In this document: positions 20,663 through 34,354 of the stretch, piece by piece
Position numbering within the stretch: the first letter of the stretch is position 1
Layout: the number at the start of each line of letters is the position of its first letter
Assembly: GCA_947589105.1 (NCBI GenBank)
Contig: CANQBL010000007.1
Location: 1 to 43,024 of the forward strand
Direction of reading: 5' to 3'
From: an uncultured Bacilli bacterium
GTDB lineage: Bacteria > Bacillota_I > Bacilli_A > RF39 > UBA660
DNA length: 43,024 nucleotides
Notes under the pieces: generated by a model
The model's database searches: none
What the model saw: the letters and a program-made list of their open reading frames with translations, nothing else
Told to the model about the DNA's origin: nothing
Program-made: the position numbers and the translations under genes

Positions 20663-22636
20663 TTATTTACTTTTGCTTTTTCTATATTGTTCAACGTTTT
20701 CTGGAGTTATTTTAAATCCTTTCATATGTATCGTATATGTTAATGGCTCTGGAATAATTAAACCTTCAGCACTTGTTAAGCTGCTTAAATCTAAATATCC
20801 ACCTACCCTTTGTGGTAACACTAATCCTTCGGCACTTGTTAAGCTATTTAAATATAAATAGCCGCCTATATTTTGTGGTAATTTTAATCCTTCGGCACTT
20901 GTTAAGCTGCTTAAATACAAATATCCACCTACGCTTTGTGGCAATATCAATCCTTCGGCACTTGTTAAGCTGCTTAAATATAAAGAGCCTCCTATGCTTT
21001 GCGGTAATTTTATGCCTTTGGCACTTGTTAAGCTATTTAAATCTAAATATCCACTTACCCTTTGTGGTAATACTAATCCTTCGGCACTGGTTAAGTAGCT
21101 TAAATCTAAATCTCCGCCTACTCTTTGTGGTAATACTAATCCTTCGGCATTAGTTAAGCTACCTAAAAATAAAGAGTCACCTATGCTTTGCGGTAACACT
21201 AATCCTTTGGCACTTGTTAAGCTATTTAAATCTAAATCTCCGCTTATACTTTGTGGTAATTTTAATCCTTCGGCACTAGTTAAACCGCTTAAATATAAAG
21301 AACCACCTATATTTTGTGGTAATTTTAATCCTTCGGCATTAGTTAAGTGGCTTAAATCTAAATCACCGTAATAATAAATAGTATCTTCATTTATTTCTTC
21401 TTTATTTAATGCTATTTGTCTTTCTTCACAATTAAAAATATTTGACAAATCTTTTCTTTTATTATTTCTTTCATTTTTAATTTCTTTAATTCTTGGGTCT
21501 TTTCTATATCCAAACCCATATATTTTATCATTTATCTCATATAAAAACGTTAATTCCTCTTTTGTTAATTCTTCTTTATTTTTATGCTTTTTATATATTT
21601 TCGTTAACTTTTTCATATCGTTAACTTTTTTATAATATTCTTCTTTATCTGGGAAATCTTTAATCTTTTCTTCTACTACCTCTTCCATTTCAGATTCGAT
21701 GTTTTGATTTTCTGCTACTCCTCTTATTTCACCTATTTTATTTCCTTCCATTCTTATCGCAATTCTTGGTACTTTATACTCATCTTTTTCATCTAAAGTG
21801 TAATATACATAAAAATCCCCATTGGATAATTGATTTTTTGCAGTATCTTCTCCTGCCGTACACCACCCTGTATTATATCCTTGTAATGAGTTTACCAAAG
21901 GCATATGATTACTTCCCCTATTATACTTTACCCATTTACCTATGTTTCTTTTTATTATATTTTTATTATTACTTAGTACCTTTGTTAATATATAAGTATA
22001 TATTTTGGGAAATGAGCCTACCCTTACCAATCCTTCTAAATCTTTATCATCTATTTCTTCTTTGTTCATTGCTTTTATTATCATATCTATTGATTTAGAT
22101 AATGCTTCTCTATTTAAATCACAAAATGGACTTACAGTATGTTCACTTCTTTTATAGAATACTTGTTTTTCTTTATCATATTTTCCTATTTTTAGCATCC
22201 CTTGAAAAGCCCAGTATTTTGCCCAAAACGGATATACCTTTGCATCGTCACTTAAAAAATAATCCAACCAATTATCAATACTTTTCTTTTGGTTTTCTAT
22301 TACTTCTTTTTCTAGTTCTTTTTTCATTTCATCAGTTATTTCAACATGTCCAAATCCTCTTTCAAGAGCTAATTCTTTTTGTTTTTCATAATAACTTTGT
22401 GGTATGTTTTCTTTTTTTATAACATATTTTTCATAATAACACTTTTTTAAATATTCTATATGTTTTGATTTTTCTTTTACTTTATTATGAATATCTTCTA
22501 ACTTTTCCAAATAATTTTTAATATTATTAAACTTATCATATTCATTTCCTTTTCCATGATGAAGAACCTGCTTATCTTTATATAAGTCTTTATATAATCT
22601 ATCTATTAATCTTATATAATCTTTTTGTTTATTCAT
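20663..22636 (-). CDS. Repeat protein: N-terminal domain with GWCTAG motif (PcfJ-like?) plus ten 21-aa leucine-rich units
   Basis: Translation shows SLQGYNTGWCTAGEDTAKNQLSNGDFYVYYT...PRIAIRMEGNKIGEIRG and ten copies of GxLxLSSLTSAEGLxLPQxIG. Confidence 0.85.
   Translation of the reverse strand: MNKQKDYIRLIDRLYKDLYKDKQVLHHGKGNEYDKFNNIKNYLEKLEDIHNKVKEKSKHIEYLKKCYYEKYVIKKENIPQSYYEKQKELALERGFGHVEITDEMKKELEKEVIENQKKSIDNWLDYFLSDDAKVYPFWAKYWAFQGMLKIGKYDKEKQVFYKRSEHTVSPFCDLNREALSKSIDMIIKAMNKEEIDDKDLEGLVRVGSFPKIYTYILTKVLSNNKNIIKRNIGKWVKYNRGSNHMPLVNSLQGYNTGWCTAGEDTAKNQLSNGDFYVYYTLDEKDEYKVPRIAIRMEGNKIGEIRGVAENQNIESEMEEVVEEKIKDFPDKEEYYKKVNDMKKLTKIYKKHKNKEELTKEELTFLYEINDKIYGFGYRKDPRIKEIKNERNNKRKDLSNIFNCEERQIALNKEEINEDTIYYYGDLDLSHLTNAEGLKLPQNIGGSLYLSGLTSAEGLKLPQSISGDLDLNSLTSAKGLVLPQSIGDSLFLGSLTNAEGLVLPQRVGGDLDLSYLTSAEGLVLPQRVSGYLDLNSLTSAKGIKLPQSIGGSLYLSSLTSAEGLILPQSVGGYLYLSSLTSAEGLKLPQNIGGYLYLNSLTSAEGLVLPQRVGGYLDLSSLTSAEGLIIPEPLTYTIHMKGFKITPENVEQYRKSKSK
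20739..21368 (-). repeat. Ten in-frame 63-bp tandem repeats
   Basis: Recurring CCTTCGGCACTTGTTAAGCT...AAATATAAA...CCTAT...TTTGTGGTAAT every 63 bp; 21-aa units. Confidence 0.95.
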
Positions 22637-22717
22637 ATAACATACCATCCTTATTTAGATTATAACATTTTTTATTTATTATTGTAAATTAAAGATAAAT
22701 CTCATTAAAATAACAAT

Positions 22718-27336: not shown

Positions 27337-28269
27337 TTATTGATTTACTTTATTTAACTTATAAGTTGTTATAAAAATATCTAAATCACTTACGTACTCT
27401 AACATTAATTTGTTATTTTTTCTTGATATTATTATTCCAATTGTATTATTATGATTATACTCTTTTATGGTTTTATCTATTAATTTCATATAGTTAAGTG
27501 TTTGACCAATATCCTTTGAACTAACCTCACAAGTTTTTAATTCTATTACTATAAATCTGTTTAGTTTATAATTAAATAATAGCAAATCAACGTAATAATT
27601 CTTGCTATTATAAGTTATTTTATATTCATTAGCTACAAACGCAAAACCGGTTCCTAATTGTAAAAATACAAGTTCTAATTCTTTTAAAATATATTTTTTT
27701 AATGCTCTTTCGTTTAAGTTTTCATCTTCATATACATCTATTATTATTGGATCAAGAAGCATATCATTTATTGTTAATACGTTATTAGACATGTTATTAG
27801 TTACTAATTTTATATTCTTTTTATCCGCGTATTTTAATCTATTAAACGAATCTTTTTTTATTTCGTTTATTAAACCTCTTACTGACAAATTATTTTCTAT
27901 ACATCTATTTATGTAATAATTTCTTTCATTTTCATCATCAAACTTTAACAAATACTTATAATGGGACCATGTTAAATTTAATTGGCTACACACCGTGTAG
28001 CTTTTTTTAAATAATACGTAAAATTTCCTCATGTTTTTTAAATTTGCTGAAGAATACCCCTTTCCATATTTCAAAACAAATTTTTTAGACCATTTTTTTA
28101 TTAAACCATCTCCATATTTAGCTCTTTTTTCACCACCTTGAGCTTTTATAAGTAACTTTCCTATTTCATAATAAGTATTTATTATTTCTTTATTATTTTG
28201 TAAGTATCTTACTTTATCATTTATTTCTTTATCTTCTATTAAGCTTTTTATTTTTAAATAATAGTCCAT
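27337..28269 (-). CDS. YhcG/DUF1016-family PDDEXK nuclease-domain protein
   Basis: N-terminal YYEIGKLLIKAQGGEKRAKYGDGLIKKWSKKF...GYSSANLKNMRKFY; C-terminal YYVDLLLFNYKLNRFIVIELKTCE. Confidence 0.85.
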   Translation of the reverse strand: MDYYLKIKSLIEDKEINDKVRYLQNNKEIINTYYEIGKLLIKAQGGEKRAKYGDGLIKKWSKKFVLKYGKGYSSANLKNMRKFYVLFKKSYTVCSQLNLTWSHYKYLLKFDDENERNYYINRCIENNLSVRGLINEIKKDSFNRLKYADKKNIKLVTNNMSNNVLTINDMLLDPIIIDVYEDENLNERALKKYILKELELVFLQLGTGFAFVANEYKITYNSKNYYVDLLLFNYKLNRFIVIELKTCEVSSKDIGQTLNYMKLIDKTIKEYNHNNTIGIIISRKNNKLMLEYVSDLDIFITTYKLNKVNQ

Positions 28270-28328: not shown

Positions 28329-28366
28329 AATAAAAAAGCAATGAACTATTGCACCTTGTTCATTGC
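28329..28366 (-). terminator. Terminator overlapping 3' end of yneF-like gene
   Basis: Minus strand AGCAATGAAC-AAGGTGCAATA-GTTCATTGCTTTTTT; stop codon lies in the loop. Confidence 0.7.
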
Positions 28367-28555
28367 TTTCATCATTTGATTAATTTGTTTTTGACTTGGG
28401 GTTCTTCCCATTTGTTGCATCATAATTTTTATCATTTTTTCGTTTATTGGTGGATTTTCTTTCAAATACTTTTTCATGAAAGCTCTAGCTAAAAGAAAAC
28501 CTAAAACTAATCCTATTATAAGTCCAATTACACACCATAAAATATTTTCCCACAT
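28346..28555 (-). CDS. YneF family (UPF0154) membrane protein
   Basis: N-terminal [42 protein letters not shown]. Confidence 0.92.
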
Positions 28556-28601: not shown

Positions 28602-29024
28602 TTATACAAGTTTTTTTGTCAATACGTTACTAAGCCAAAAATAGTCTTTGTTAAGAAAGTCACAAACAAATACGCTTTCTTCTTTTTCAATAATTTTAAA
28701 AAAAGCCGTTATATTTTTATTTGTTTTAACCTTTATATAAGTGTTATACACTGTTAATTTTGTTTTCTCAACCCCATTATCTAATATATGCTTATTTAAA
28801 GTTTTTTTATAATTTTCATCATAAGCATACTCCCTATATATATTACTATTAATCCGTGTTTTACTAAAAGGAACCGCCATCTGTTCAAATAATCTATAAG
28901 ATATTATAAAATCATTTTGACTAGACAATGATATTTGTTCAAGCATTTTATATAAATAATATGTTTTATTGTAGTATAATTTAGAAAATGAATCATTAAT
29001 CTTAAATAAATAATATACCCTCAT
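28602..29024 (-). CDS. sirA: Sporulation inhibitor of replication SirA-like (YneE)
   Basis: YYLFKINDSFSKLYYNKTYYLYKMLEQ and C-terminal FLNKDYFWLSNVLTKKLV resemble SirA ends; immediately upstream of yneF as in B. subtilis. Confidence 0.7.
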   Translation of the reverse strand: MRVYYLFKINDSFSKLYYNKTYYLYKMLEQISLSSQNDFIISYRLFEQMAVPFSKTRINSNIYREYAYDENYKKTLNKHILDNGVEKTKLTVYNTYIKVKTNKNITAFFKIIEKEESVFVCDFLNKDYFWLSNVLTKKLV

Positions 29025-29138: not shown

Positions 29139-29282
29139 TCAAGCATTTAATACAAAATTTCTTTCATTTGATACTTGTTTTACTTCACTTTGTTTATCAT
29201 AACTAATTATCCAAATAACATTAACTAGTGTTAAAATTAAATAAATTAAAGCGACTCCTTTATAGTTTTTTAAAAAGTTCAT
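29139..29282 (-). CDS. Small membrane protein divergent from lexA (47 aa; YneA-position candidate)
   Basis: ATG 29280-29282, TGA 29139-29141; MNFLKNYKGVALIYLILTLVNVIWIISYDKQSEVKQVSNERNFVLNA; RBS AAGGGAGTGATTATA; promoter TTGACA-17-TATAAT. Confidence 0.65.
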   Translation of the reverse strand: MNFLKNYKGVALIYLILTLVNVIWIISYDKQSEVKQVSNERNFVLNA

Positions 29283-29317
29283 TATAATCACTCCCTTATT
29301 TGTCTTTTCTTGTCTAA

Positions 29318-29395
29318 ATTATACTACGAACAAATGTATGTGTCAATACAAAATAAGAACATTTGTTTGACAATGTAAAGTATTTATGCTATTAT
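29318..29395. promoter_or_regulatory. Divergent SOS-type promoter region: two LexA-box-like sites and two sigma-A promoters
   Basis: CGAACAAATGTATG (29327-29340) and AGAACATTTGTTTG (29356-29369); minus promoter TTGACA (29346-29341)/TATAAT (29323-29318), plus promoter TTGACA (29367-29372)/TATTAT (29390-29395), both 17-bp spacers. Confidence 0.75.
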
Positions 29396-29420
29396 ATAAA
29401 TGTAATAAAAAGGAGGCTTT

Positions 29421-30032
29421 ATGGAAAAGTTAACAAACCGCCAAAAAGACGTATTAGATTACATAAAAAGTTACGTTGCAACCCATGGTTACCCACCTGC
29501 AGTAAGAGAAATTGGAAGTGCTTTAGGACTTAACTCCCCTGCAACTATACAATCACACATAATTGCATTAGAAACCAAGGGTTACATAAAAAAAACAAAT
29601 TCAAAGTATCGTTCACTTGAAATTGTAGGTCCAAATGAATATTTAAATGAAGATGTTGTAGAAGTACCTTTATTAGGTAAGATTACCGCAGGCTCTCCAA
29701 TTGAAGCAATCGAAACCCCAAATGAGTTTTTTAGTTTACCAGCTTATTTAATTCCAAGTAAAGAGGAAGTATTTACCTTAAAAGTAAGTGGTGATAGTAT
29801 GATTAATGCGGGTATATTTGACGGAGACATAGTAATAGTTCAAAGACAAAATATTGCTAAAAATGGTGATATTGTAGTTGCTATGACGATGGAAAATGAA
29901 GTTACGTTAAAAACCTTTTATAAGGAATCTAATTATATTAGGTTACAACCTCAAAACGATACAATGAAACCAATTATATTACCTAACTGTACAATACTTG
30001 GAAAAGCAATTGGTTTATATAGAAAATTTTAA
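29421..30032 (+). CDS. lexA: LexA repressor
   Basis: LTNRQKDVLDYIKSYVATHGYPPAVREIGSALGLNSPATIQSHI; VPLLGKITAGSPI; SGDSMINAGIFDGDIVIV; catalytic K in ENEVTLKTF. Confidence 0.97.
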   Translation: MEKLTNRQKDVLDYIKSYVATHGYPPAVREIGSALGLNSPATIQSHIIALETKGYIKKTNSKYRSLEIVGPNEYLNEDVVEVPLLGKITAGSPIEAIETPNEFFSLPAYLIPSKEEVFTLKVSGDSMINAGIFDGDIVIVQRQNIAKNGDIVVAMTMENEVTLKTFYKESNYIRLQPQNDTMKPIILPNCTILGKAIGLYRKF

Positions 30033-33087: not shown

Positions 33088-34230
33088 TTATCTAACCAAA
33101 TGTTTTTGTTCAAAAATTTTATTTTCAACCGCCACTCTCTGAACCAATCCTAAACATATAAGTAAATTTATCATAAATGATCCACCATAAGAATAAAACG
33201 GAAGAGGAACCCCAGTAAGTGGTATTATGCCTAATACTCCTCCTAAATTAATCATAACATGAAGTGATATTAAAGTAGCAACCCCGTAACATATTATTGT
33301 TCCTTGCAAATTATAAGATTTTTTACCTATTAAAATTATTCGCCATATTATTACAAAATAAGATAAAATTATTAAAACACCTGCTATTAAACCCATTTCT
33401 TCTATTATTATAGCAAATATAAAATCAGTGTGAGCTTCTGGTAAATACAAATACTTTTGCTTACTATTACCATAGCCACTTCCTAAAATGCCACCACTAT
33501 TTATCGCAATATATCCATTACATACTTGATAACCAGTTTTTTCCCGATATCTGGTACAAGGGTCTTTATAATTAAATCTACTAACTTGACTACTAGTTAA
33601 ACCTTTACCTGTTACCACCATTACAAGAGCTAAAATAAGTACCGAAATTATAGTAAATGTTGCCATAATAAACTTCAATTTATTATCATAAGGAATAACT
33701 AAAAAAATAACCGCTGTTATGCCAACTAATACCATCATGGTTCCAAAGTCTGGTTGTTCAAATATTAAAAATATAAATATAAATGGAACCACGAAAGGTA
33801 AAACTTTCATAGAATTACTAATATATTTAATTTTCAACATCTTTTCAAAAATGAGTGCAAAAAACAATATCAGAACAGTTTTTGCAAACTCACTTGGTTG
33901 AATACCAAAACCGCCAATAAAAAGCCAACCACTTATTCCGTTCATAACCTTCTCATTTACAAGAACATATATTAAAGCCCCAGTAACTATTAAAATTGCA
34001 AAATATATTAATATACGCCAAGTTTTTATATAATTTTTAATTATTATCCAAGCACAAAAAAGACCTGCTGCTATAAATAAAATTTGCCTTTTAAAATAAA
34101 AATAACTATCAGCTTTAGACATATAGGCTTTTAATGATGAAGCACTACCAACCATCATAAGTCCAAAGACTAAACAAATGAGTGTTAATATTAATAAAGG
34201 CTTATCAATTTTATTAAAAACTTTTCTCAT
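33088..34230 (-). CDS. FtsW/RodA/SpoVE family peptidoglycan glycosyltransferase
   Basis: GIQPSEFAKTVLILFFA; PEAHTDFIFAIIIEEMGL; PLTGVPLPFYSYGGS; start likely MRKVFNK. Confidence 0.92.
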   Translation of the reverse strand: MRKVFNKIDKPLLILTLICLVFGLMMVGSASSLKAYMSKADSYFYFKRQILFIAAGLFCAWIIIKNYIKTWRILIYFAILIVTGALIYVLVNEKVMNGISGWLFIGGFGIQPSEFAKTVLILFFALIFEKMLKIKYISNSMKVLPFVVPFIFIFLIFEQPDFGTMMVLVGITAVIFLVIPYDNKLKFIMATFTIISVLILALVMVVTGKGLTSSQVSRFNYKDPCTRYREKTGYQVCNGYIAINSGGILGSGYGNSKQKYLYLPEAHTDFIFAIIIEEMGLIAGVLIILSYFVIIWRIILIGKKSYNLQGTIICYGVATLISLHVMINLGGVLGIIPLTGVPLPFYSYGGSFMINLLICLGLVQRVAVENKIFEQKHLVR

Positions 34231-34354
34231 GTTATCACCTATCATAAATATAATAACACATTTTTTTATTTTTTTATATATAGGTATTTTGTATAACACT
34301 TTATTTACATTTAGAGTAAACTATAATAGATAATATCAAAGGAGGGATATTAAT

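Follow-up and report, generated by a model that had tools for sequence, protein, structure and literature searches.

In the 43,024-nucleotide stretch of DNA analysed here (the window), a gene for a 47-aa peptide with a single transmembrane (TM) helix lies divergent from lexA. We consider it probable that the two form a LexA-repressed divergent pair, in which the peptide serves as a membrane inhibitor of septation that likely acts on FtsW and is possibly cleared by CtpA. The window is contig C7 of an AT-rich draft genome of about 1.03-1.04 Mb (30 contigs, 92.5% complete); a literature search combining RF39 with LexA retrieved no paper. The features on which the analysis is based are listed in Table 1.

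Table 1. Features of the lexA-peptide region and a candidate target in the window
Feature	Position	Strand	Basis or remark
YneF (UPF0154)	28346..28555	-	profile match
SirA-family gene, yneE position	28602..29024	-	PF10747, E 1.5e-12
47-aa single-TM peptide MNFLKNYKGVALIYLILTLVNVIWIISYDKQSEVKQVSNERNFVLNA, helix 3-30, ~18-aa tail	29139..29282	-	ORF, conservation, dN/dS, AF2
Ribosome-binding site GGGAG, peptide gene	29291..29295	-	8 nt upstream of ATG
-10 TATAAT, peptide promoter	29318..29323	-	promoter scan
LexA-type box 1 CGAACAAATGTATG, in peptide promoter spacer	29327..29340	.	box here in 60/60 peptide-bearing main-set loci, 0/5 peptide-less
-35 TTGACA, peptide promoter	29341..29346	-	promoter scan
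LexA-type box 2 AGAACATTTGTTTG, overlapping lexA -35 (predicted autoregulation)	29356..29369	.	box and promoter positions
-35 TTGACA, lexA promoter	29367..29372	+	promoter scan
-10 TATTAT, lexA promoter (TG-extended)	29390..29395	+	promoter scan
lexA (203 aa; HTH plus S24 domain)	29421..30032	+	TIGR00498, 235 bits
SEDS protein, candidate target; FtsW best among FtsW/RodA models	33088..34299	-	model comparison

The peptide gene and its neighbourhood

By its domains and profile match the product of the plus-strand gene is a genuine LexA. Its sequence contains ITAGSP, GDSM and TLKTF, which we take to be the Ala-Gly cleavage site, the serine and the lysine of LexA self-cleavage, respectively. The ORF facing it encodes 47 aa from an ATG; an in-frame GTG further upstream lies over the ribosome-binding site and is an unlikely start. 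Judged by its codons, this ORF is a real gene under purifying selection: the median dN/dS over pairs within the genus was 0.27, and variability at codon positions 1, 2 and 3 was 0.195, 0.114 and 0.325. AlphaFold2 returned one confident helix (residues 3-30) followed by a low-confidence tail.

The order of genes in the window is lexA / peptide - sirA - yneF, and that in genus relatives is lexA / peptide - tkt - sirA - yneF; in Bacillus it is lexA / yneA - (yneB, ynzC) - tkt - sirA - yneF. The gene order thus agrees with that around yneA, represented by sirA and yneF in the window, by tkt, sirA and yneF in the genus loci, and by ynzC-tkt in the outgroup family f11, where the order is lexA / a different 57-aa membrane peptide - ynzC - tkt. 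At three f11 loci (L159, L215 and L218) this hydrophobic peptide is divergent from lexA, with three LexA-type boxes, and is followed by ynzC (tkt also in L159). Transketolase was not detected in the window genome (G000), though tkt adjoins the peptide gene in genus relatives with enough flanking sequence; the peptide has been kept there despite this. The gene beyond the peptide varies (tkt, polA or rpsB, and sirA in the window), while the peptide remains beside lexA. In one set of genera (L025, L099, L103-L111, L162, L164) polA takes the place of tkt. The SirA-family gene (PF10747), whose Bacillus counterpart is a sporulation inhibitor of replication, has not been lost from these small genomes and is also retained elsewhere in the family, in other genera. 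Two further observations concern the wider window: a YhcG-type PDDEXK nuclease (DUF1016) gene lies at 27337-28269, between yneF and a parE/gyrB-like gene, and the C-terminal part of a 661-aa protein encoded at 20663-22648 is a series of leucine-rich-like repeats that are almost identical to one another (LTSAEGLxLPQxxGGxLxL).

A peptide ORF of 47-51 aa with a ribosome-binding site was present in all 17 genus genomes having enough upstream DNA. Across the family, a single-TM ORF of 28-57 aa divergent from lexA was found in 33 of 45 testable genera (13/18 in a first sample and 20/27 in a second, evenly drawn one), and the other 12 have no such peptide beside lexA. A profile search in genomes without a lexA-side copy gave no convincing copy, the best hit (E 4e-4) lying inside a long frame. 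The sequences are strongly divergent, often at 10-20% identity, and the TM segment differs greatly from one genus to another. The peptides have one hydrophobic TM helix with basic residues at the N-terminus; this basic start is common to the subfamilies, as is a tyrosine in the middle of the helix, and two of the three have R-x-x-x-L after the helix. Profile-profile comparison linked subfamilies at E 1.3e-5 and 5e-6, versus 0.01-0.05 for a YneF TM control, with A1-A3 alone at E 0.0025, and so lends weak support to a common origin. The smallest member (L204, genus g40) is a 28-aa ORF beside lexA, MVELYYLFLNKYIMGMVIFLAFVAYFGA, a bare helix with no tail; its gene has two boxes and a ribosome-binding site.

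A C-terminal motif, hydrophobic-x-hydrophobic-Asn/Ser, occurs in 42 of 60 peptides compared to 8.2 +/- 2.6 in shuffled tails, a count inflated by the relatedness of the sequences and hence not a clean probability. Neither a LysM domain nor the YneA model (NCBIfam NF010723) matched the window peptide or any of 60 relatives, and the tail is too short to form a LysM. Run across 296 genomes, the YneA model for the most part picked up LysM repeats and so gave no useful information. No credible match to a known family came from PDB, PHROGs or the family libraries. These data uphold the preliminary description, which had seen in the peptide a TM helix without LysM in the yneA position. The peptide is conserved in relatives at the level of both genus and family; a lack of such conservation had been named in that description as grounds for refutation.

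Promoters and LexA-type boxes in the intergenic gap

The two genes are separated by 138 bp (29283-29420), the gap length given in the preliminary description. The peptide promoter, TTGACA-N17-TATAAT, matches the sigma-70-type consensus at 12 of 12 positions, and box 1 is contained entirely in its 17-bp spacer (29324-29340); the lexA promoter matches at 11 of 12, and box 2 overlaps its -35 hexamer. Both placements had been proposed from a first reading, and the coordinates agree with them.

Each box differs by one mismatch from CGAACNNNNGTTYG. Only about 15 such sites occur in the 1.03-Mb genome, and as many were found with reversed-pattern controls; a single one-mismatch site is consequently not significant, and lists of boxes were not taken as evidence by themselves. 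A pair of sites 29 bp apart in the lexA promoter gap, both retained by the relatives in the genus and coinciding with two consensus promoters, goes far beyond what chance would produce.

That this motif is the SOS box of the lineage is indicated by recA, upstream of which CGAACAWWYGTTTG was found in the same place in 17/17 genus genomes (15 exact, two with one mismatch); in the window genome this is the sole exact site. Each of two paralogous Bro-N/DinD-like genes (L035:1-293, contig C1; L047:1548-2405, contig C12) is preceded by a LexA-type box with one mismatch, about 34 bp from its likely start codon; the two are candidates for additional SOS genes. A further palindrome with one mismatch, CAAACAATCGTTTG, lies about 35 bp upstream of recG (L045:1501-1514, contig C12). 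It is this independent set of recA, the two Bro-N/DinD-like genes and recG that makes the motif credible as an SOS box.

In the main set of 65 loci, a second box accompanies the peptide (Fisher p 1.2e-7, a value inflated by the relatedness of the sequences), and is expected by chance in about 7% per locus. The five peptide-less loci have retained just the lexA-side box, or have none that could be recognised. The palindrome occupied the spacer of the top-scoring peptide-strand promoter in 52 of 60 loci. In some genera the half-site has drifted from GAAC to AAAC, and in genera g52 and g56 of the second sample the peptide is present with a second box so degenerate that it fails the one-mismatch test. 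Taken together, the layout of boxes and promoters strongly supports the prediction that the peptide is very probably regulated by LexA.

Proposed function and alternative explanations

In the undamaged cell, a LexA dimer on box 1 would fill the spacer of the consensus promoter and keep the peptide off, and LexA on box 2 would repress lexA itself. Upon DNA damage, RecA filaments would promote LexA self-cleavage and the peptide would be made from its strong promoter. It would then enter the membrane with its basic N-terminus inside and its short polar tail outside; the hint at this topology is the positive-inside trend, with 2.85 K/R ahead of the TM helix and 1.57 among the 10 residues that follow it. 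The helix is envisaged to bind the septal wall-synthesis complex, most likely FtsW (with PBP2/FtsL), and thereby to delay septation. Once LexA returns, the peptide would be cleared; CtpA, a membrane protease of family S41, may do this by recognising the conserved motif at the C-terminus. The window genome encodes FtsZ, FtsL, a PBP2-type protein and an FtsW-like SEDS protein, the last of these by a gene in the window itself. It also encodes a CtpA-like S41 protease of the membrane, and peptidase S41 was matched in 18/18 genus genomes (weakly in G009). The window genome has just one Lon-type protein, a frame of 790 aa, and hence no YlbL equivalent is evident.

With these septation genes and the CtpA-like protease present, the precedents of YneA, SosA and SidA make a septation inhibitor the most likely reading of the peptide's position and architecture. 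The chief rival is a depolarising peptide similar to TisB or DinQ, a LexA-controlled toxin that lowers membrane potential after damage and slows growth with no action on the divisome. In size and single TM helix the peptide resembles E. coli DinQ (27 aa, LexA-controlled, depolarising; PMC3567139), one member is TM-only at 28 aa, and two of 17 members showed a weak PHROG similarity to host-killing peptides (E 0.09). DinQ and TisB, however, have antisense RNA partners, and Rfam, which covers known RNAs, gave only sub-threshold hits and none above the gathering score at this region; a divisome ligand would also better explain why the position is always that of yneA and why the tail, with the motif at its C-terminus, is conserved. 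We therefore regard a toxin as unlikely.

A different role for the peptide as a small membrane protein under LexA control, for example in regulating another membrane protein or a protease or in connecting the SOS response with envelope stress, would be compatible with a TM sequence so variable between genera, and the function proposed here is itself deduced. It too appears improbable, since the characterised lexA-adjacent single-TM SOS genes (YneA, ChiZ, DivS and SosA) are division inhibitors (reviewed in PMC6851548). As for a conserved leader or a spurious ORF upstream of lexA, the shortness of the frame and its lack of a database family would fit, but the low dN/dS, the least variable second codon position, the conserved TM helix and ribosome-binding site and the retention in 33 genera make a non-gene extremely improbable; on the codon evidence we reject the spurious ORF.

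The main caution against the division-inhibitor reading comes from B. subtilis, where the TM part of YneA alone localises and does not block division (PMC13396833); a peptide with a short tail must consequently act differently. We suggest, tentatively and as a possibility short of a probability, that the peptides represent naturally occurring FtsW inhibitors of a TM-only type. They would constitute a family-wide SOS checkpoint of gut Bacilli with reduced genomes, in which septal wall synthesis is blocked by a helix of 28-57 aa whose outer domain is minimal or missing. If true, contact between the TM helix and FtsW can inhibit even where there is no peptidoglycan-binding domain of the sort required by B. 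subtilis YneA. The dozens of divergent natural sequences at one conserved genome position would form a panel for defining the minimal helix that stops FtsW-PBP2, and would bear on the question of whether LysM was acquired by YneA or lost in this lineage. More broadly, the lexA-linked membrane checkpoint layout of Bacillus, Listeria, Staphylococcus and actinobacteria appears to persist in uncultured gut Bacilli with ~1-Mb genomes, in a form that is very small and has no detectable known domain.

Comparison with known systems

YneA resembles the peptide in being divergent from lexA in the same neighbourhood (tkt, sirA, yneF), with a LexA box in its promoter and a single TM helix. It binds FtsW TM7 through that helix and needs its LysM for inhibition (PMC13396833), a domain absent here, as is any match to the YneA model; it is digested directly by CtpA (PMC6051672). 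Models place SosA and SidA on FtsW as well (PMC13396833). Caulobacter SidA (29 aa) is a very small SOS-induced single-TM peptide that interacts with FtsW (PMC4211646). The present peptide is likewise very small with a single TM helix, and SOS induction and contact with FtsW are predicted for it; SidA belongs to another phylum and genomic setting. DinQ and TisB are likewise short TM peptides under LexA control, but they are type I toxins that depolarise the membrane, are paired with an antisense RNA and have no linkage to lexA.

A better precedent than YneA is SosA of S. aureus (77 aa, divergent from lexA, controlled by CtpA; PMC6851548), as it also has no LysM. The two share the position opposite lexA, LexA control (here a LexA-type box), a single TM helix, a conserved extreme C-terminus and a CtpA-family protease in the genome; they differ in length (77 aa versus 28-57 aa here) and in bacterial family, and the likeness drawn here is one of layout. 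By this analogy the peptide most likely works as SosA does; it does not belong to the LysM-bearing YneA family. Its kind is thus already known from SosA; what is new is the small size, the family-wide spread and a sequence with no family link to YneA.
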